From Oscillospiraceae bacterium (GTDB lineage Bacteria; Bacillota; Clostridia; Oscillospirales; Oscillospiraceae), in the NCBI GenBank assembly GCA_015068305.1, contig SVKV01000006.1, positions 1-64,000 of the forward strand: a stretch of 64,000 nt of DNA, written 5' to 3'. The notes under the pieces were generated by a model. The model did no database searches. It had not been told where the DNA came from and worked only from the letters and a program-made list of their open reading frames with translations. Positions 2,248-12,345 of the stretch are shown in pieces. The number at the start of each line of letters is the position of its first letter. Position 1 is the stretch's first letter. Both the position numbers and the translations under genes were made by a program.

Positions 2248-3015
2248 ATGAACGAACCGCTTGTTTCCGTAATTATGCCTGCATACAAATGCGCATCTAC
2301 CATCCGGGCTGCGATTGATTCTGTGCTGCTCCAGAATGTTCCGCTGGAACTGCTTGTGATTGATGACTGCTCACCGGAGCTCCTGGATGAGGCGCTTGAT
2401 CCGTATCGGAATGAGGAACGGGTGAAATTCTACAGAAATGAGCAGAATCTGGGTGCAGCAGCATCCCGAAACTGGGGTGTCACACTGGCTCGCGCACCGT
2501 ATATTGCATTTCTGGATGCAGATGATATCTGGAAACCGGAAAAGCTTGAAAAGCAGATTTCACTTCTGGATGAAACGGGGCTTGTCTTATGTGCCACAGG
2601 CAGGGAACTGATGGATCCCGATGGCCGGCTGACCGGTCGTGTCATTCCGGTTCCGGAGAGAATTACCTATCGGGAACTGCTGAAGCATAACTGTATCAAC
2701 TGCTCCTCTGTTGTGATGAGAACGGAGGCAGCCCGGGAATTCCCGATGGAGCATGAGGATGCCCATGAAGATTACATCATGTGGCTTAGGGTCTTGCAAA
2801 AATACCAGTATGCCTGCGGGATCAATGAACCCTTGCTGAAGTATCGGCTTACCAATACGGGAAAATCCGGCAGCAAGCTCCATTCTGCCCAAATGACATT
2901 CCGGGTATATCGCTGCATGGGGTTCGGGCTGTGTAAATCTGCTGCGCTTTTTTCCAGCTATGCGGTTCACGGTGTGATGAAATATGCCCTCAGCTATTTG
3001 GGAGACAGAAAATGA
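2248..3015 (+). CDS. GT2 family glycosyltransferase
   Basis: Cytoplasmic GT-A fold glycosyltransferase of family 2, expected to add one sugar to the lipid-linked repeat begun by the upstream priming enzyme. The start VSVIMPAYKCASTIRAAIDS, the nucleotide-binding VIDDCSPE and the metal-binding LDADD (about residue 91) are all visible. Beyond residue 200 there is no clear membrane anchor. The 255-residue length is close to a minimal GT2. The stop overlaps the next start as ATGA (3012-3015), indicating translational coupling. Donor and acceptor are not predictable. Confidence 0.88.
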   Translation: MNEPLVSVIMPAYKCASTIRAAIDSVLLQNVPLELLVIDDCSPELLDEALDPYRNEERVKFYRNEQNLGAAASRNWGVTLARAPYIAFLDADDIWKPEKLEKQISLLDETGLVLCATGRELMDPDGRLTGRVIPVPERITYRELLKHNCINCSSVVMRTEAAREFPMEHEDAHEDYIMWLRVLQKYQYACGINEPLLKYRLTNTGKSGSKLHSAQMTFRVYRCMGFGLCKSAALFSSYAVHGVMKYALSYLGDRK

Positions 3016-3806
3016 AGCTTGATATTCTTTTGTCCTGTGTGAATCAGCAGGATGACCGGTTGATTCGCAGTTCCCGGATCACGGGAAATGCCGTGGTGAT
3101 CAATCAGTGCGGTAATAATGATCTGCGTTCCTGGAAAACCGAAGGCGGAACAGTCCGCTGGTTCGACTCTGCCACAAGAGGATTAACGGTTAGCAGAAAT
3201 CTCGCGCTGGAGAAGTCCGATGCGGATGTCTGTCTGCTGTGCGATGATGACGAGATGTTTGTTCCGGATTATGAAGACCTGATTTGCAAGGCTTATGAAG
3301 CATTGCCCCAGGCGGATGTGATCATTTTTAAGATGGTTGGAAGGGCATCTTCTCTTGAGAACCGGATTATGGAACTGAAGTTTCCCAAGACCATGCACGT
3401 TAGTTCCTGGCAGATTTCTTTCCGCAGGGAGAGTCTTCTGCGAACCGGTGTCCGGTTTGACGAATTGATGGGCGCAGGAACCGGAAACGGTGCGGAGGAA
3501 GAACTGAAGTTTCTGGTGGATTGCCAGAAAGCCGGTCTGAAGATCTGGTATGTTCCGGAGGAAATTGCCTCCGTAGCCCAGACAGAGTCCACCTGGTTTA
3601 AAGGCTTTGATGAATCGTTCTTCTATAACCGGGGTGCTACCACCCGCTATATTCTGGGATGGCCCCTTGCGGTTGCATACGGAATTTACTATGTGATAAA
3701 GAAAAGACCTATGTATACCGGGGACATCTCACCGAAGAAGGCATTCGACGCTCTTTTTCGTGGAATTCGGGAGAATAGAATCGGAAAACAAGCTGGGATG
3801 AAGTGA
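3012..3806 (+). CDS. GT2-like glycosyltransferase
   Basis: A 264-residue glycosyltransferase-like protein, more divergent than its neighbours. The N-terminus (LDILLSCVNQQD) lacks the usual PxYN motif, but TRGLTVSRNLAL matches the GT2 helix before the DXD, and CLLCDDDEMF (about residues 74-83) supplies an acidic metal site. GAGTGNGAEEELKFL and a C-terminal hydrophobic segment (LGWPLAVAYGIYYVI) resemble glycosyltransferases that modify the end of a glycan. It overlaps the previous gene by four bases and precedes another GT2 by 25. Function within the polysaccharide locus is inferred from fold and context. Confidence 0.78.
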   Translation: MKLDILLSCVNQQDDRLIRSSRITGNAVVINQCGNNDLRSWKTEGGTVRWFDSATRGLTVSRNLALEKSDADVCLLCDDDEMFVPDYEDLICKAYEALPQADVIIFKMVGRASSLENRIMELKFPKTMHVSSWQISFRRESLLRTGVRFDELMGAGTGNGAEEELKFLVDCQKAGLKIWYVPEEIASVAQTESTWFKGFDESFFYNRGATTRYILGWPLAVAYGIYYVIKKRPMYTGDISPKKAFDALFRGIRENRIGKQAGMK

Positions 3807-3831
3807 GCGGTCCCGAAGAAAGAGTTTTGCT

Positions 3832-4866
3832 ATGAAAGTTTTATCACTGATTGTTCCGTCCTATAACAGCGAACAGTTTTTAGATAAGGTAATTCCGTCC
3901 TTTCTGCATCCTGAGGTGATTGATAAGCTGGATATCATCGTTGTCAACGATGGTTCCAAAGATGCAACACCTGAGATTGCAAAAAAATACTGTGACGACT
4001 ATCCAGATTCGGTCCGGCTGATTAATCAGGAAAATAAGGGGCATGGCGGTGCACTGAATACGGGCTGCGCTGCGGCAGTTGGAAAGTATCTGAAAGTAGT
4101 TGATGCTGACGACTGGGTGGAAACGGAGAATCTGCCTGCGTTTATCAGTTTGCTGGAGGACTGTGTCAGCGATGTGGTTCTGACCCATCACCATACCGTC
4201 GATATCTCCAGCGGGGAAATAAAAAAATGGAAGAGTTACCCCGAGCAGTTTGGAAGAAGCTATACCATGGAGGAAATCATGGGTCAGTGGAAGAACTTTG
4301 ACAGAAGTCTGACTTTCCACGGAATCACATACTCCACGGAATTCTATCACCGCAACGGCATTCAACTGTCAGAGCACGTGTTCTATGAAGACCATGAATT
4401 TGCAACATTTCCCTGCTGCATGGCAAAAAGTATCACGCCATTTGATTTATTTATTTATGACTATCGCATCGGCGATGTGCAGCAAAGTGTTTCCAACGAG
4501 AATCAGCTTCGCAGAATCGGTCATACAGAGACGGTTTTGCGGCGTTTCGTCCGGGAGTATTATAACCTTCCGCTGGAAAAAGATGATGCCGGACGGAGTT
4601 ACGTGTGTATGAAAGCCCAGGGCTTGCTCATGAGTTATCTGACAACGGTCATGCTGGTGCATCCTGACCGGAAGCAGGGAAGAATGATGGGCGCCCGGAT
4701 GATGGACTATTTTAAAGAGAATTTACCTGATACATGGGAATTGTCCTTCAAACAGTACCAGGCATTCCGCATCATGAATGTTCTTTCTATACAAAAGCAA
4801 ACTTTTGAATCTATGTTGCACTCGCGAGTTTTCAATTGGTTGCGGCATAGTCGTGATTTTGAATAA
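3832..4866 (+). CDS. GT2 family glycosyltransferase
   Basis: A 344-residue GT2 enzyme with LSLIVPSYNSEQFLDKVIPS at the start, VVNDGSKDAT at about 38-47 and VDADDW near 91-96, the canonical nucleotide-sugar and metal-binding motifs. The C-terminal 120 residues are helical, without a transmembrane segment. It lies in the same operon as the priming transferase and stops 9 bases before the ABC permease. Its likely job is adding a residue to the lipid-linked glycan on the cytoplasmic face before export. Specificity is unknown. Confidence 0.88.
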   Translation: MKVLSLIVPSYNSEQFLDKVIPSFLHPEVIDKLDIIVVNDGSKDATPEIAKKYCDDYPDSVRLINQENKGHGGALNTGCAAAVGKYLKVVDADDWVETENLPAFISLLEDCVSDVVLTHHHTVDISSGEIKKWKSYPEQFGRSYTMEEIMGQWKNFDRSLTFHGITYSTEFYHRNGIQLSEHVFYEDHEFATFPCCMAKSITPFDLFIYDYRIGDVQQSVSNENQLRRIGHTETVLRRFVREYYNLPLEKDDAGRSYVCMKAQGLLMSYLTTVMLVHPDRKQGRMMGARMMDYFKENLPDTWELSFKQYQAFRIMNVLSIQKQTFESMLHSRVFNWLRHSRDFE

Positions 4867-4875
4867 GGAGAAATT

Positions 4876-5676
4876 ATGAATAAGTCAAGTAGTAAGATTG
4901 TCCAGTATGTCCAGGAATTCTGGAAATACCGGGATTTGTTGAAGCTGCTTGTTAGCAGAGATATTAAACTCAAATACCGCAGAAGCTTTCTGGGTTATAT
5001 ATGGAGCGTTTTGAATCCGCTGCTGATCATGGTTGTTATGACGGTGGTGTTCTCAACCATGTTCAAGCGGAATATCGATAATTTCCCGGTCTATCTGTTT
5101 TGCGGTCAGCTGCTGTTCAACTTTATGAACTCATCCACCCACCAGGCTATTTTTTCAATTACCGGTAATGCAGCACTGCTGAAGAAAACCTATGTCCCTA
5201 AGTATATTTTTACAATTGCAAAAATCACCAGCGGCATGATTGATATGGTATTTTCTTTAGGTGCATTGGTTATTGTCATGCTGGTTACCCGGGCGAAGAT
5301 TTCCTGGACTGCGCTGCTGTTCCCGTTTGTACTGCTGCAGCTGTATCTGTTCTGCATTGGCCTTGGCCTGTTCCTGGCGCAGGGCAATGTGTTTTTTAAG
5401 GATATCCAGTATATTTATAATGCGATTACCACGGCATGGATGTATCTGACACCGATTTTCTATCCAATTGAGGCTTTGCCCGAATGGCTGTGCTGGTGCG
5501 TGAAGCATTTCAACCCGATGTATTTTTATGTCGGTCAATTTCGGGACCTGGTTTGGACCGGTACCGTTCCCGGTCCATTGATTACGCTTGCAGGATGGGG
5601 TGCTGCTGTGCTGATGCTGACAGTTGGTACATGGAGCTTCATGCGTTCTAAAGATAAGTTTATTCTGTATATTTAA
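4876..5676 (+). CDS. ABC-2 type polysaccharide export permease (Wzm/TagG-like)
   Basis: Integral membrane half of an ABC exporter that carries a lipid-linked glycan or teichoic-acid-like polymer outward. The 266 residues contain an N-terminal amphipathic stretch (LLKLLVSRDIKLKYRRSFLGYIWSVL, typical of the family) and six predicted transmembrane segments, with the YLTPIFYPIEALP motif near residues 190-202. The ATPase subunit follows 14 bases later. Its presence, and the absence of a Wzx/Wzy pair in the window, suggest the ABC-dependent route of polymer export. Confidence 0.9.
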   Translation: MNKSSSKIVQYVQEFWKYRDLLKLLVSRDIKLKYRRSFLGYIWSVLNPLLIMVVMTVVFSTMFKRNIDNFPVYLFCGQLLFNFMNSSTHQAIFSITGNAALLKKTYVPKYIFTIAKITSGMIDMVFSLGALVIVMLVTRAKISWTALLFPFVLLQLYLFCIGLGLFLAQGNVFFKDIQYIYNAITTAWMYLTPIFYPIEALPEWLCWCVKHFNPMYFYVGQFRDLVWTGTVPGPLITLAGWGAAVLMLTVGTWSFMRSKDKFILYI

Positions 5677-5690
5677 TTAGGAGAACTGTT

Positions 5691-6437
5691 ATGGATGAGA
5701 AACGGGTCATGATTGACGTAGACCATGTGACAATCCGATTCAACCTTGCCAACCAAAAGGTAGATAATCTGAAAGAATACTTCATTAAGCTGATCAAAAG
5801 AGAACTGATGTTCCAGGAATTCCTGGCTGTAAAGGATGTGAGCTTCCAGGTCCGCCAGGGTGAAGCCTGGGGCCTGATCGGAACTAACGGTTCCGGAAAG
5901 TCAACCATGCTCAAGGCAATCAGCGGAATCCTGAAACCCTATAAGGGAACCATTTCGGTTAACGGTAGTGTGGCACCTTTGATTGAACTGGGTGCAGGCT
6001 TTGACCAGGAAATGACAGCCCGGGAGAATATTTTCCTTAACGGCTGTGTGCTAGGACACTCGGAACAGTTCATGCGGGAGCATTTTGATGAGATCGTGGA
6101 CTTTGCGGAGATTCGCGATTTTCTGGATTCGCCCATTAAAAATTACTCATCCGGTATGAAAGCACGGTTGGGCTTTTCCGTAGCGACGATGGTCAAACCG
6201 GATATCCTGATTGTGGATGAGATTTTGTCTGTGGGAGACTATAAGTTCAAGCAGAAGTGCATGAAGCGAATGAAGGAACTTCTTAGCGGCGGTACGACGC
6301 TGCTGTTTGTGTCCCATAATATTGATGAAGTTAAACGCCTGTGCGACCATGCAATTTGGATCCATAAGGGCGAGGCAAAGATGATCGGCGAAGCCAAAAC
6401 CGTGTGCGACACCTATATGGAAGAAATGAAGAAATAA
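5691..6437 (+). CDS. ABC transporter ATPase for polysaccharide export (Wzt/TagH-like)
   Basis: Nucleotide-binding subunit partnering the preceding permease. Walker A GTNGSGKS (about residues 64-71), signature YSSGMKARLGFS (about 152), Walker B ILIVDEIL with the following SVGD (about 172-182) and the H-loop VSHNIDE (about 207) are intact. At 248 residues it lacks the C-terminal carbohydrate-recognition domain seen in some Wzt proteins, so chain-end recognition, if present, must lie elsewhere. It is the last gene of the plus-strand operon; stem-loops follow. Confidence 0.92.
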   Translation: MDEKRVMIDVDHVTIRFNLANQKVDNLKEYFIKLIKRELMFQEFLAVKDVSFQVRQGEAWGLIGTNGSGKSTMLKAISGILKPYKGTISVNGSVAPLIELGAGFDQEMTARENIFLNGCVLGHSEQFMREHFDEIVDFAEIRDFLDSPIKNYSSGMKARLGFSVATMVKPDILIVDEILSVGDYKFKQKCMKRMKELLSGGTTLLFVSHNIDEVKRLCDHAIWIHKGEAKMIGEAKTVCDTYMEEMKK

Positions 6438-6549: not shown

Positions 6550-6588
6550 GTGTGGCAGGTTTCCTTATTAGGAAACCTGCCACACTTT
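6550..6588. terminator. intrinsic terminator between convergent polysaccharide operons
   Basis: A 15-bp perfect stem GTGTGGCAGGTTTCC/GGAAACCTGCCACAC with a TTATTA loop is followed by TTT on the plus strand. The next gene is read from the opposite strand, so it may serve both. Confidence 0.8.
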
Positions 6589-6617: not shown

Positions 6618-9062
6618 TCAGTTGTGGTTCAAAAATTTGTTGATTCTCTGCTTAAGTGTCTTTTTTGGGGAGGTGGACTCATCTTGCTTGGTTGTGGAGA
6701 AACCGTTGCCCTGTAGTGCAGGGCAATCCGTTTGCACGGATGCGGGAACAGTAAATCCTGTGTTCAGATAGTTGTCAATTTCTTTCCGGAGATTGGCGAT
6801 ATCATTTTGGTACTTTTCATTTTCAGATTCCAAAGCTTTAACACGATTGGACATGCCGATAAACTTGCGCATATGATCGACATTTAGAGTGCGCATTGTT
6901 TCGATACCTGCTTTTGTCGGGCAAACGAGTGCATTTTCTAACCATGCCATAGCACGTTCTTTTTCGAAATGAATACACCTGTTAACGGCAACGTAGTCGA
7001 TGGGCGCATATGCCCGGTCACTGTTACAGATATCGTCAGGATTCAGGAATAGACGATCTCTCAGGCCGAGGGCATCGGCAACTGTTTCAAAACGAGTGAT
7101 GCCACGGCTTGCGTTGCCTATAGCGGCATAGGGCTTCTCATAAATAATGCCGAAGCAGGTACCATGATGAGAGTCGGTCATAAGGTAGGAACAATTTTTG
7201 ATGTAGTACAGGAACTGACTCGAAGTGATCCTGGGCAGAATCGTACCGACATGCCAATTATTGATGGCATAATTGTGCTCCTTCAATCCCAGAATTGTGA
7301 TAATTTCAAGGTTTTCATGTTCAGCAATCGCTCTTGCGGCTGCTTCCTTTTCGGGGGTTGGGTCAAGAATATAACAAAGAAGATATTTTCGGTCGATTAC
7401 ATCATGAACCTTGTCTGCTACACGGTTATAGTCCTCTTTAGTACAAAGGAAAACAGGATCAATAATCTGGTCTGCATCGATGCCAAACCGTTTCTTACAG
7501 ACATCAATACCGGATTTTTCGCGGACGCTGATAGCATCAAAGCGTTTCAGGAAATCTCCTGCGGTAGCACGGACCTCATCGCTTGCATAAAAATCGCTTT
7601 GGCCAAACGATGTGGAAAATGCAATCTTTTTCTTGTCCTTATCAACAAAATCAAGGAAGAACGTATAGCCAACCAAATCTGTGCTTCCGCCTGTCCACAT
7701 CTGGTCAGAACCTAACATAAAGGAGTCACAGAACTGGTTGAATTCATACATTTTATCAAAGCTGCGGGTTTTGCCGATATGGAAGAACTGGGAAAGAAAA
7801 TCAACGGTATACTTGATTTCAGGCTCCCATGGCGTACCATTCACCTTGGCGATGGGAACCATTAAGACCTGTTTGCCCAGGTTTTCAAGAATTGTACCTA
7901 AAGCATAGTAGGTCAGCGAACTGCCATAGTTAGAGGCAAACCACCAGCCAACAATGCCTACGTCATAACGCATGCCACGGCCATACCATAGTGCTTTGTG
8001 ATAACCATAGTCCTTCAAATGAGAAAAGAAAAACTTTCTGGAAGGGTGAGGAGGGGTCGGATGGCGGAGCTGACCATTAAACTGGCTCATGAAATCCAGA
8101 GGAATAGGTTCGCATAGCTTCATGCGGGAACGCAGTTTCTGGAAGAGCTTCTGTCCGTGTTTTGAGTTGACCAAAACGAGAGACGTACCCTTTCGGTCAT
8201 CATACGAGGGATTATGACGGTGAACCTGCCAGCAGTCTGCCATTGTAATGTCAGCGATACGTTCTGCTCTGGCATAGGGGCAACTGTAGCAATTGGTTCG
8301 ATTGATAATACCGTCCAGGAATCCCTTATACCACATACCTTCGTTCCAGGCAGCTTTTTTTACTTCGCCGTTTTTCAGGTAAACCACGGTGGGCGTAGAC
8401 CAAGTGTAATGTACCTTGTCACGGAAGTCGACCTTTGCAATCTCCTTCCCTTCGGAGAATTCCTTGATAAAGGACTGATAGGCAGTTACGGAATTAGAAC
8501 CGTGGCACACGAGGTCTGCGGTGTACAGATTCTCATATTCCTTACCCAGATAACCATAAAGACCGGCAATCTGACAGGGGCAGCCGGTATATAAAACCAT
8601 GCGTCCCTGATCAAGATACTGTTTTGCCTGCCTGTATGTCAGCTCTGTATCGCTTTGCACATATTTGGATCCACGCAAAGGTGCTAAATCTGCTTTATAC
8701 TCAGCCCAAATATGATGCACGAACTGATAGTCATCTGTGTATGCAGCACCACATACGGCGCCACCATGTTCAAGCACGTAGTCAGCCAACAAAGAGAACA
8801 TGCCACCGGAAGAACTCTTAAGACGAACATCATCTGCAGCCCATACAGCATAGCTTGCAGGCTTATCATGAAACTTCAGCGGATTCAGGGCGGGACAGAC
8901 GTTCTGGCATAAACCGCAGTTAACACATGTATCTGTTACCTTGGGGAAGATAAAACCCTCTTCATCATATTCCATGACGATTGCGTTTGTAGGGCATTTG
9001 TTATAGCAAGCACCACAGCCGGTACATTGATCGTGCGATACCTGATTGATTGTTTTATCCAT
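6618..9062 (-). CDS. Fe-S/F420-hydrogenase-beta-like and polysaccharide pyruvyl transferase fusion
   Basis: An 814-residue two-enzyme fusion. Residues 14-54 carry two ferredoxin-type [4Fe-4S] motifs (CTGCGACYNKCP and CVNCGLCQNVCP). A region of the coenzyme F420 hydrogenase/dehydrogenase beta-subunit type follows, to about residue 330, with further cysteines (NCYSCPYA). From about 370, VGIVGWWFASNYGSSLTYYA begins a polysaccharide pyruvyl transferase domain, with MLGSDQMW and MTDSHHGTCFGI motifs typical of that family. The tail contains a short coiled coil (about 745-770). The pyruvyl transferase domain would modify a sugar of the surface glycan; what the redox half does is unknown. The start is ATG at 9062, preceded by AAAGGAG. 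Last gene of the minus-strand operon behind glf and two GT2 genes. Confidence 0.85.
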   Translation of the reverse strand: MDKTINQVSHDQCTGCGACYNKCPTNAIVMEYDEEGFIFPKVTDTCVNCGLCQNVCPALNPLKFHDKPASYAVWAADDVRLKSSSGGMFSLLADYVLEHGGAVCGAAYTDDYQFVHHIWAEYKADLAPLRGSKYVQSDTELTYRQAKQYLDQGRMVLYTGCPCQIAGLYGYLGKEYENLYTADLVCHGSNSVTAYQSFIKEFSEGKEIAKVDFRDKVHYTWSTPTVVYLKNGEVKKAAWNEGMWYKGFLDGIINRTNCYSCPYARAERIADITMADCWQVHRHNPSYDDRKGTSLVLVNSKHGQKLFQKLRSRMKLCEPIPLDFMSQFNGQLRHPTPPHPSRKFFFSHLKDYGYHKALWYGRGMRYDVGIVGWWFASNYGSSLTYYALGTILENLGKQVLMVPIAKVNGTPWEPEIKYTVDFLSQFFHIGKTRSFDKMYEFNQFCDSFMLGSDQMWTGGSTDLVGYTFFLDFVDKDKKKIAFSTSFGQSDFYASDEVRATAGDFLKRFDAISVREKSGIDVCKKRFGIDADQIIDPVFLCTKEDYNRVADKVHDVIDRKYLLCYILDPTPEKEAAARAIAEHENLEIITILGLKEHNYAINNWHVGTILPRITSSQFLYYIKNCSYLMTDSHHGTCFGIIYEKPYAAIGNASRGITRFETVADALGLRDRLFLNPDDICNSDRAYAPIDYVAVNRCIHFEKERAMAWLENALVCPTKAGIETMRTLNVDHMRKFIGMSNRVKALESENEKYQNDIANLRKEIDNYLNTGFTVPASVQTDCPALQGNGFSTTKQDESTSPKKTLKQRINKFLNHN

Positions 9063-9082: not shown

Positions 9083-10045
9083 TTAGATATCTCCTCGTCT
9101 AACGGTATTAGCAAGTGTTGCGATATGGGCGGGCATATTATCCAGGTGCTGAGACAAAGCAAAGTCTTGAATCAAAGCATTCACTTCCTGTAAATGCTCT
9201 GCAGCCTGCGTTACCTGAGTGCTGCGGATATCCGCCACCAGGAATTCCAGCAACCACTGAGTAAAGTCCTTTCCGTACAGATCAAGCCAACCCTGGCTCT
9301 TCCAATAATCACAGATGACTCTGGTCAGGAATAAGTGCTTTCTGATCTTCTCGTCCATATCGTCGTGGTTGGTCTGCATGAGAGATCCCTCACGGTACCA
9401 GCGATAATTGTACAGCTTATCAGAAATAAATGCATAGTTCTTGCCGTGGGGAAAAGCTTCCATCTGGAAGACAGTATCCTCGCCGTATTTGATGCTTTCA
9501 TCAAACAGAAGCTTGTGCTCCGTAAAGAAGGTTCGGCTGTAGGCATGACGCCAGACAAAAGGCTTGGCTGCAGGCTCATTGAACAAGACATCAGGGGTGA
9601 ACTCCCAACGGCGGTGTGTGCGGACCGTTAGGACATGATAATACCAGTTTGTGGCACGAGGTGTTGTGGGAAAGATATGCGTTCCAAAAATGACCACATC
9701 AGTGGGTGCCTCCAGAGTTTCACACCAAACACGCTCACAGGCATTTAAAGCAAGGGAGTCGTCCGAATCCAGAAACATTAGGTAGCTTCCGGATGAACAG
9801 GCGATACCGGCATTACGGGCGGAGGATAGGCCACCGTTAGGCTTGTTCACAATCTTGATGCGGTTATCACGCTTTGCAAATTCCTGCAGGATCTGCAGGG
9901 AAGAGTCAGTACTGCCGTCATTGACACAGATGATCTCGATATCGTATAAGGTCTGGTTGATACAACTGTGCAGACAGGCGCTCAGATACTTTTCTACATT
10001 ATATACTGGAACAATTATAGAAATCTTAACAGGAAGTCCACTCAT
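9083..10045 (-). CDS. GT2 family glycosyltransferase
   Basis: A 320-residue GT2 with ISIIVPVYNVEKYLSACLHS, IICVNDGSTDSS and FLDSDDS (DXD equivalent, about residues 93-99), all well preserved. The remainder resembles the C-terminal half of family 2 enzymes acting on capsular or teichoic glycans, without membrane segments. Its ATG overlaps the stop of the upstream GT gene as ATGA (10042-10045), so the two are translationally coupled. Linkage and donor cannot be assigned; UDP-galactofuranose is one candidate donor because glf is in the same operon. Confidence 0.88.
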   Translation of the reverse strand: MSGLPVKISIIVPVYNVEKYLSACLHSCINQTLYDIEIICVNDGSTDSSLQILQEFAKRDNRIKIVNKPNGGLSSARNAGIACSSGSYLMFLDSDDSLALNACERVWCETLEAPTDVVIFGTHIFPTTPRATNWYYHVLTVRTHRRWEFTPDVLFNEPAAKPFVWRHAYSRTFFTEHKLLFDESIKYGEDTVFQMEAFPHGKNYAFISDKLYNYRWYREGSLMQTNHDDMDEKIRKHLFLTRVICDYWKSQGWLDLYGKDFTQWLLEFLVADIRSTQVTQAAEHLQEVNALIQDFALSQHLDNMPAHIATLANTVRRGDI

Positions 10046-11223
10046 TTGCTTACCCTCCCAATGATCTTTTTGACAAACAGTTTGATTGTGTAGAGAAGGC
10101 CGTGTTCGCGAATGCAGTCGAAGCCGCCGAGGATCTTATCCAACAGATAGGGAACTTCCTTGCCATTGATTGTGCGCTTGGGCTTGGGTGCTGCTTCGTA
10201 AAAATCAGGGGCAGGTTCACCATTTTTAATCTTAACCTGGATCATGTGATAGCGGTCAGGGTCTTCAATGATCTGGTTTACCGCCTTCCACTTATACCAC
10301 TCAAAGTAAGCTTTATTCAGAAGACCATCCAGCTGATGCCGACGGAAATCTTCAGCGAAGCGCTGAATGAATTCAGCCTGGAGGGGCTCGGCCAGGCGCT
10401 CATAATTCCAGTTATAGCTATCGTATTTTACGCGGACCATAACCGGTTCAACAATCCCTTTTTCCACGGGGTGGTCGTTTAGAAAGCGCTCCATCTCTTC
10501 GTATTCATCGCAAATGCAGTAAACCTTGCCAGGGGAGTTGATAGAAGAAGCCTCGTTGTCCTGGCGATAGTGCAGGAAGCACTCCTCCATCAATCGGACT
10601 CGCTGGGCGCAGACCCATACCTTAAAGTTGAAACTGGCATCCTGATAGGATGCGCCGGGGGTCTCATTGAAGCGAATGTTATTGGAGCGGATGAAATCTT
10701 TGCGGTAGATCGCAGACCAAATGGTGGGCTTGATGTTGAAGAACTCCACCATTTCCATCTTGGACTTGAAAGCGGTCAAAGGACAGAAAGTACGGTTGCT
10801 GGTTGCGGAAGATGCAATAGGAGCAGGTGTGTTAGTTTCAGTAGGTTTGGAAAAATAGAAGAAGAAGCCGGACTTAACAACATCCAGGTCATGCTCTTTG
10901 GCAGTAGCATATAACTTCTCAAACATATCCAGTTCGGCGTAATCGTCGGATTCGATAATGCCAATATACTCACCGGTAGCCATGTCAAAGCCGCGGTTCA
11001 TGCTGTCGCCGTAACCGGCATTAGGCTTGTCAATGATTTTGATTCGGCAATCCTTTTCAGCATACTCTTGAATAATAGACAGTGTGGAATCTTTGGATCC
11101 ATCGTTTACACAGATAATTTCGATATCCTGCAGGGTCTGATTAATGACACTGTCGAGACACTGGTGCAAATATTTTTCTACATTGTAACAGGGAATGACA
11201 ATAGACACTTTGGGAGAACTCAT
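10042..11223 (-). CDS. GT2 family glycosyltransferase
   Basis: A 393-residue GT2: VSIVIPCYNVEKYLHQCLDS, ICVNDGSKDST, the GYGDSMNRGFDMATGEYIGI helix and an IIESDDY metal site near residue 89, where ESDD replaces the more usual DADD. The C-terminal extension after about residue 240 is soluble and of unknown role. It sits between glf (27-base gap) and another GT2 (4-base overlap). The order suggests successive additions to the same glycan. Specificity is unknown. Confidence 0.88.
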   Translation of the reverse strand: MSSPKVSIVIPCYNVEKYLHQCLDSVINQTLQDIEIICVNDGSKDSTLSIIQEYAEKDCRIKIIDKPNAGYGDSMNRGFDMATGEYIGIIESDDYAELDMFEKLYATAKEHDLDVVKSGFFFYFSKPTETNTPAPIASSATSNRTFCPLTAFKSKMEMVEFFNIKPTIWSAIYRKDFIRSNNIRFNETPGASYQDASFNFKVWVCAQRVRLMEECFLHYRQDNEASSINSPGKVYCICDEYEEMERFLNDHPVEKGIVEPVMVRVKYDSYNWNYERLAEPLQAEFIQRFAEDFRRHQLDGLLNKAYFEWYKWKAVNQIIEDPDRYHMIQVKIKNGEPAPDFYEAAPKPKRTINGKEVPYLLDKILGGFDCIREHGLLYTIKLFVKKIIGRVSK

Positions 11224-11250: not shown

Positions 11251-12345
11251 TTAAATAATATGTTTTAGGTCGTCCAGTGCAGCACGGATGACTTTATCCA
11301 TATCGTAGTAGCGGTACTGGCCCAGACGGCCACCGAAAATCACATTGCCCTGGGCGTCGGCAAGCTCTTTGTACTTGGCATAAAGAGCGCCATTTTCCGC
11401 ATCGTTGACGGGGTAATAGGGTTCCATGCCGGGTTTCCATTCAGCGGAGTACTCCTTGCTGATGATGGTGGTAGGCTGCTTGCCGAATTCAAAGTGTTTG
11501 TGCTCGATGATGCGGGTAAAGGGCTGGTCCCAGGAGGTGTAGTTGACCACAGCATTGCCCTGGTAGTCTTCCATATCCAGCTCCTCAGTTTCAAACCGGA
11601 CACTGCGGTACTGGAGATTGCCCAGCTTGTAGTCAAAATACTCGTCGATACAGCCGGTATAGACGATCCTGTCTGCGATATTGGGCTCCTGGCGGATGAG
11701 ATCCTTAAAATCTACCCCCAGACGAACCTCTACACCCACCAGCATTTTCTCCACCATGGCGGTGTAGCCGCCAATGGGGATACCCTGGTAGCGGTCGTTG
11801 AAGTAATTATTGTCGTAAGTAAAGCGGCAGGGGAGGCGCTTGATAATAAAAGCGGGGAGTTCCTTGCAGTCCCGGCCCCACTGCTTTTCGGTGTAATCCT
11901 TCACAAGCTTGGTATAAACATCCGTACCCACCAGACTCAGAGCCTGCTCTTCCAGATTCCTGGGTTCGGTGATGTTCAGTGCCGCACGCTGCTGGGCTAT
12001 CTTTTCTTTTGCCTGGGCAGGTGTGCGAATCCCCCACATTTTGGAGAAGGTATTCATGTTGAAGGGGAGATTGTACAGCTCATCCTTGTATACTGCGATG
12101 GGACTGTTGATGTAATTGTTAAACTCAGAAAACTGGTTTACATAATCCCAAACTTCCTTGTCGCTGGTGTGGAAAATGTGAGCACCGTACTTGTGGACAT
12201 TGATGCCGGAAATGCTCTCGGTATAGATGTTGCCGGCGATATGATCCCGGCGATCAATAACAAGGCACTTTTTGCCGGATTTCGTCAGCTCATGGGCAAA
12301 AACAGCACCATAAAGACCGGCGCCCACAATCAGATAATCATACAT
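11251..12345 (-). CDS. glf: UDP-galactopyranose mutase
   Basis: Flavoenzyme that interconverts UDP-galactopyranose and UDP-galactofuranose, the donor for galactofuranose residues in bacterial glycans. The 364 residues match the family length. The FAD-binding LIVGAGLYGAVFAHEL is at residues 4-19, VIDRRDHIAGNIYT follows, and the GAHIFHTSDKEVWDYV and GRLGQYRYYDMDKVI signatures of this family are present. First gene of the minus-strand polysaccharide operon, with a good promoter 60-90 bases upstream. Its presence is the best evidence that the locus makes a galactofuranose-containing polymer. Confidence 0.95.
   Translation of the reverse strand: MYDYLIVGAGLYGAVFAHELTKSGKKCLVIDRRDHIAGNIYTESISGINVHKYGAHIFHTSDKEVWDYVNQFSEFNNYINSPIAVYKDELYNLPFNMNTFSKMWGIRTPAQAKEKIAQQRAALNITEPRNLEEQALSLVGTDVYTKLVKDYTEKQWGRDCKELPAFIIKRLPCRFTYDNNYFNDRYQGIPIGGYTAMVEKMLVGVEVRLGVDFKDLIRQEPNIADRIVYTGCIDEYFDYKLGNLQYRSVRFETEELDMEDYQGNAVVNYTSWDQPFTRIIEHKHFEFGKQPTTIISKEYSAEWKPGMEPYYPVNDAENGALYAKYKELADAQGNVIFGGRLGQYRYYDMDKVIRAALDDLKHII

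Follow-up and report, generated by a model that had tools for sequence, protein, structure and literature searches.

A ferredoxin-like flavoprotein fused to a polysaccharide pyruvyl transferase relative is a probable lactyl-ether synthase for a bacterial surface glycan

An iron-sulfur flavin reductase and a relative of the pyruvyl transferases are joined in one protein of a gut bacterium. The gene lies at positions 6618–9062 (minus strand) of the window, the 64,000-nucleotide stretch of Oscillospiraceae DNA analysed here. Judging from sequence and predicted structure, this protein is quite probably a bifunctional synthase of lactyl (1-carboxyethyl) ethers in a surface glycan, which would carry out the reaction pair of MurA and MurB with unrelated folds in a single chain. 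The muramic acid of cell walls is made by lactyl-ether chemistry of this kind. Our case is built on computational observations of the fusion and its conservation, of changed active-site residues, of linkage to reductases that are swapped for one another, and of the gene content of the Escherichia coli O124/O164 antigen locus.

The open reading frame starts with ATG, has 814 codons with no internal stops, and is present as a single copy in a search of the host genome. All parts of the product are given here with positions on the minus strand. At the N terminus is a 2[4Fe-4S] ferredoxin-like domain (residues 8–58; 8889–9041; Pfam Fer4/Fer4_7), whose eight cysteines (13, 16, 19, 23, 46, 49, 52 and 56) are invariant among 46 aligned fused homologues. 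A flavoprotein domain follows (residues 71–315; 8118–8852), recognized by Pfam, alignment and Foldseek, in which FrhB_FdhB_N (residues 71–138) scores 31.7 bits against a cut-off of 22 and FrhB_FdhB_C (residues 154–315) scores 80.6 bits against 23.3. Thus both domains that define the FrhB/FpoF family (PF04422 and PF04432) exceed their cut-offs behind an eight-cysteine ferredoxin-like N terminus. Four cysteines of the flavoprotein domain (C163, C186, C258 and C261) are also invariant in the 46 homologues and may hold a third cluster. With 12 invariant cysteines, the statement of a first-pass annotation that the Fe-S cysteines of the redox half are intact is borne out.

The C half carries a PS_pyruv_trans domain (PF04230; residues 378–650; 7113–7931) that scores 109.7 bits against a gathering cut-off of 25.3 and covers model positions 1–278 of 280. 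It includes the motifs N378-Y-G380-S381, GSD453Q, R514 and S631-H-H633, with the invariant R657 just beyond the domain. The chain ends in a long helix that resembles a coiled coil (residues 717–767; 6762–6914), as read from the secondary structure of an AlphaFold2 model at pLDDT 60–75; from residue 769 on, pLDDT is below 50. The model of the whole protein has a mean pLDDT of 91 and a pTM of 0.82. Foldseek searches returned FrhB/FpoF-type chains as the top matches of the N half, along with the plant enzyme HCAR, and for the C half gave GT-B proteins, Pvg1p (5ax7) among them. Sequence and profile searches of the PDB with the C half found no relative, and Pvg1p was reached by fold search only. 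Below, PPT denotes any protein of the PS_pyruv_trans family (PF04230), and L and G numbers are labels for loci and genomes.

The fusion is not peculiar to this record. A congener carries it at 72% identity, and other species carry it in separate assemblies. Matches occur in 34 of 151 genomes of the family Oscillospiraceae, where only the congener has the FrhB-first order, most other fused members are PPT-first, and several genomes have FrhB and PPT genes side by side. When 84,980 species genomes were scanned, 79 loci from many phyla were recovered. Fusions make up 54 of these (47 FrhB-first, 5 PPT-first and 2 of unclear order), a share that is inflated because the query was itself a fusion and the loci are its nearest matches. 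At 20 loci a PPT gene lies within 6 kb of an FrhB gene, and the remaining five, three of them near contig ends, have no such neighbor. The two fusion orders require at least two changes on the PPT tree. The fusions of other species, together with the common opposite-order and split versions, rule out an assembly or annotation artefact; the first-pass annotation had named absence from relatives as the sign of such an error. Some fusions (L057 and L110) additionally bear one or two GT2 domains, which places the class in glycan assembly. One reading frame encodes 2052 amino acids (L085:9959–16117), with FrhB-PPT continuing into ILEI, citrate-lyase-ligase C-terminal and epimerase/NAD-binding domains.

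The genetic context in the window is likewise that of a glycan locus. The fused gene comes last in an apparent minus-strand operon of the order glf-GT2-GT2-fusion. This comprises glf, encoding UDP-galactopyranose mutase (11251–12345; TIGR00031, 434.5 bits against a cut-off of 303.75), and two GT2 glycosyltransferase genes, the first (10042–11223) overlapping the next by 4 bp and the second (9083–10045) followed after 20 bp by the fused gene. The operon faces a plus-strand set that includes a polyprenyl glycosylphosphotransferase gene for starting glycan synthesis (844–2220; TIGR03025 above cut-off). Three glycosyltransferase-like genes follow within 2248–4866 (2248–3015, 3012–3806 and 3832–4866), of which the middle one has no Pfam match and only a below-cut-off match to HpsN. 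A Wzm/Wzt-type polysaccharide ABC exporter, permease and ATPase, is also part of the set (4876–6437; profile matches). Between the convergent units, a perfect 16-bp inverted repeat with a four-base loop, read in the sequence at 6550–6585, resembles a terminator.

Known ketal pyruvyl transferases have an active site composed of the Asp of an NxGD motif, Arg217/148, Arg337/306 and His339/308 (PMC4872226, PMC10435577, PMC10629545), where the paired numbers refer to Pvg1p (D106, R217, R337, H339) and CsaB (R148, R306, H308). The D106A mutant of Pvg1p is nearly inactive (PMC4872226, PMC10629545). The fused protein has NYGS at residues 378–381 in place of NxGD, and Ser631 of SHH in place of the Arg of RxH, a position that is Ser in all 50 FrhB-first fusions. 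The equivalents of Arg217/148 (R514) and His339/308 (H633) are kept and are invariant in 46 homologues, and R657 is a candidate to stand in for the lost Arg337. The same pattern recurs in PPTs linked to reductases, which read NxG[S/A/N/G]...GSD...SxH; Ser takes the place of Arg337 in nearly all of them, and Asp106 is mostly replaced by S, A, N or G. In contrast, most unlinked PPTs read NxGD...GGG...RxH, and E. coli WcaK retains both NxGD and RxH. All reductase-linked PPTs separate from canonical ones on the PPT tree (support 99). The residue change is no strict rule, however, because two fusions, L244 (G211:C24:25400–35400) and L249 (G247:C1:914000–924000), join FrhB to RxH-type PPTs. One of these PPTs has NxGD as well, and the G211 version has no ferredoxin domain; the two represent a separate FrhB-PPT combination.

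Linkage between this PPT class and FrhB was measured with PF04230 matches taken from 101 genomes of the phylum in a way that avoided FrhB-based selection, and with PF04432 matches from the same genomes. Among 112 PF04230 matches that were read, 12 belong to the new class, 93 are canonical and 7 have no motif assignment. FrhB lies within 6 kb of 10 of the 12 new-class PPTs versus 2 of the 93 canonical ones (Fisher p 1.5e-10, uncorrected for relatedness of the genomes). Chance neighborhood is ruled out by this survey together with the occurrence of both fusion orders. No reductase was seen near three class or near-class proteins, G179:C6 (L173), G200:C4 (at a contig end) and G211:C90 (L161). In two separate genomes (L173:6165–11308 and L257:4968–10498) a class PPT gene is followed by wzx and then by genes for a TPP-dependent enzyme and an SDR/epimerase, and a flavin reductase is absent there.

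FrhB, nitroreductase and MurB, flavin reductases unrelated to one another, all occur as partners of the class, either paired or fused. FrhB is fused in both orders, and among plasmid and E. coli records it is fused in Marinibacterium and is paired with a class PPT in E. coli O124/O164, O69 and IAI1, in Klebsiella aerogenes and in Lactiplantibacillus plantarum LZ227. Nitroreductase (PF00881) is fused in Gemmobacter (L177) and Paracoccus alcaliphilus (L253), adjoins the PPT gene in E. coli (L176), and lies one gene off in L. plantarum (L178). MurB is fused in Paracoccus aestuarii (L252), is the next gene in Cetobacterium (L255) and is one gene off in Levilactobacillus brevis (L258), and MurB-like FAD-binding proteins adjoin class PPTs in Novosphingobium and in the haloarchaeon Natrinema. 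The Natrinema protein passes the cut-off for FAD_binding_4 and fails that for MurB_C. Both it and the Cetobacterium protein keep the GSVF motif, which in MurB contains the proton-donor serine. Genes for MurB with no PPT nearby in Bacillus velezensis, Serratia and Salipiger indicate that plasmid murB matches are not all PPT partners.

In lactobacilli, the third gene of a syntenic PPT-wzx-X arrangement encodes nitroreductase (L178), FrhB (L256) or MurB (L258). Overall, the PPT tree implies at least nine reductase switches, although long branches make several of its deep placements uncertain. The reaction of MurB is the reduction of an enolpyruvyl ether to a lactyl ether. A domain that is interchangeable with MurB and lies beside a member of a PEP-using transferase family is most simply read as catalyzing that reaction too. 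The Fe-S part appears to serve as an electron relay, since E. coli FrhB versions have only part of the N-terminal Fe-S cysteines while keeping the flavoprotein domains, and the homologue on the LZ227 plasmid (L256:7592–8761), one gene off the PPT gene, has lost nearly all of them and retains both FrhB Pfam domains. The both-order fusions, the common split neighbors and the other flavin reductases in the same place support the earlier proposal that the redox half is functionally tied to the PPT-like half.

The nature of the product is suggested by the O124/O164 O-antigen locus of E. coli, which contains only wzx, FrhB, PPT, four glycosyltransferase genes, wzy and glf. FrhB and PPT are the sole genes left unassigned, so that by elimination an unusual sugar modification would fall to them. 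The O124 antigen, presumably shared with Shigella dysenteriae type 3, would by analogy carry a lactyl group. A sugar of this type, 4-O-[(R)-1-carboxyethyl]-D-glucose, is a component of the S. dysenteriae O-antigen (PMC10609480), and antigenic relations of O124/O164 with Shigella have been cited (PMC6156305). The title of a 2006 paper (cited in PMC5643014) announces two new genes for glucolactilic acid in Shigella boydii 17; going by that title, these are probably an FrhB-PPT pair. O124 antiserum shows a weak cross-reaction with a type of Escherichia albertii that is related to O69 (PMC6927306), and O69 also has FrhB and a class PPT, so a lactyl epitope shared with O124 is possible. The fused protein has the features of such pairs, namely FrhB and a PPT of the GSDQ/SxH class in a glycan locus.

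In the mechanism we propose, the C half would take an (enol)pyruvyl group, with PEP as the likely donor, and attach it to one sugar hydroxyl, leaving the usual cyclic ketal unclosed. The acceptor is probably a lipid-linked oligosaccharide. Electrons from reduced ferredoxin would pass through the [4Fe-4S] clusters of the N half to the flavin, which would reduce the enolpyruvyl ether, or an oxocarbenium equivalent, to a lactyl ether. Both the enolpyruvyl intermediate and the lactyl product are thus putative in this organism. Ferredoxin is the probable electron donor, and the host genome encodes pyruvate:ferredoxin oxidoreductase. F420 was rejected as the carrier: neither cofD nor cofE was found in the host genome while methanogen controls gave matches, which makes its use unlikely. 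The fused protein also scores only 39.2 bits against the FpoF equivalog cut-off of 475.

Other readings of the fusion are considerably less probable. The C half might be an ordinary ketal pyruvyl transferase, and the FrhB half might act on a different group of the repeat unit, such as a keto or unsaturated sugar, the two being fused merely through their common glycan. This is unlikely, although the PF04230 match is well above cut-off and two FrhB fusions have RxH-type PPTs. Both the Asp and the Arg of known ketal transferases are missing from the class, which counts against the ordinary pyruvate ketal that the first annotation implied. Moreover, the finding of reductases of three unrelated kinds, MurB included, in one and the same place suggests one shared substrate reduced by flavin, and the O124/O164 locus shows no further genes for making a sugar in need of reduction. 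No support was found for the keto-sugar reduction that the first-pass annotation had also entertained. Its suggestion that the redox half works on the same glycan holds insofar as the two halves are tied together, but the evidence points to the transferred (enol)pyruvyl group as the target.

Loss of the Arg337 and Asp106 equivalents might mean that the donor is a compound other than PEP. A transferase that uses such a donor or makes a related ether, with the reductase acting on that group, is slightly less credible again than an ordinary ketal enzyme. Ser does replace the PEP-contacting Arg337, ethers of 2,4-dihydroxypentanoic acid exist, as in Providencia (PMC10609480), and TPP-dependent enzymes rather than a reductase stand beside some members (L173 and L257). 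However, the His339 and Arg217 equivalents are retained, and both the MurB partners and the locus for glucolactilic acid favor a lactyl group of three carbons. Very improbable is a regulatory role in which the Fe-S/flavin half senses redox state or oxygen to control the transferase and takes no part in sugar chemistry. Such clusters are generally oxygen-sensitive, judging from the family, and record titles place the fused relatives mostly in anaerobic habitats. Yet MurB and nitroreductase-family enzymes, which have no Fe-S clusters, replace this half, and FrhB of E. coli and Lactiplantibacillus has lost Fe-S cysteines, in part or almost entirely, while retaining the flavoprotein domains.

The lactyl-ether reading likens the fused protein to MurA-MurB in its proposed chemistry, an enolpyruvyl transfer from PEP followed by flavin reduction. 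The folds differ, being EPSP-synthase-like plus MurB in the classical pair and GT-B plus FrhB in one fused chain here; neither an EPSP-synthase-fold nor a MurB-fold domain is present in the fused protein, and the host's single MurB is encoded on another contig. MurA-MurB use a UDP-linked acceptor and NADPH, whereas a lipid-linked acceptor and ferredoxin are proposed for the fusion. We nevertheless retain the comparison, given the fusion of MurB to a PPT of this class in L252. The closest counterparts are FrhB and PPT of E. coli O124/O164 and, by title, the S. boydii 17 genes, which share the FrhB-family flavoprotein, the NxG(non-D)/GSDQ/SxH PPT and a glycan locus with glf. The E. coli O124/O164 genes are separate, their FrhB has partial N-terminal Fe-S cysteines, and the acceptor sugar may differ. 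The ketal pyruvyl transferases CsaB, WcfO, WbbZ, Pvg1p and WcaK share PF04230, the GT-B fold and the PEP-site Arg and His, but the fused protein departs from them in lacking the NxGD Asp and RxH Arg, in its attached reductase and in the open lactyl ether proposed. With the F420 oxidoreductase subunits FpoF/FrhB and plant HCAR it shares the FrhB_N/FrhB_C flavoprotein fold, and with FpoF the 2[4Fe-4S] N terminus; its score far under the FpoF cut-off, the lack of detected F420 synthesis genes and the glycan context set it apart from FpoF/FrhB.

The domain families are already known, and the FrhB-PPT pair was, as far as its title tells, probably tied to glucolactilic acid in 2006. In the literature searched, which mostly excluded subscription papers, we found neither an assayed enzyme of this PPT class nor a description of the fused form, the residue signature, the three-reductase swap including MurB or the breadth of the class. 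With somewhat less assurance than for the fused protein itself, we favor the view that reductase-linked PPTs are enolpyruvyl transferases of a second, unrelated family. With FrhB, nitroreductase or MurB as interchangeable partners, they would make up a convergent MurA-MurB-like lactyl-ether system that is widespread among bacteria and also occurs in an archaeon, and of which the fused protein would be the fully fused, ferredoxin-driven form. If so, a sizeable class annotated as 'polysaccharide pyruvyl transferase' consists of lactyl-ether synthases that can be told by two residues and a neighboring reductase, and glycans of the gut and of pathogens that contain 1-carboxyethyl sugars could be recognized by this marker in genomes. 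The muramic-acid reaction would then have evolved convergently, with its second enzyme swapped several times.

Several related loci deserve mention. A plasmid of Haematobacter massiliensis (L261:2617–4960) has genes for a MurA-like UDP-GlcNAc 1-carboxyvinyltransferase and MurB side by side with glycan genes near, perhaps a classical pair recruited for a lactyl-ether glycan. Three E. coli plasmids (L176, L188 and L189) are small mosaics rich in insertion sequences that bear fragments of glycan loci (wzx, FrhB or nitroreductase, PPT and glycosyltransferases), and they may alter surface antigens. Finally, three of five E. coli genomes, TUM18780 (L185:7148–8283), TUM18530 and DETEC-C31, have the O124/O164 PPT gene broken into two reading frames; the gene is intact in the O124/O164 isolates VL7S7 and WEC. 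The split genes form a natural loss-of-function set that may relate to the difference between O124 and O164.
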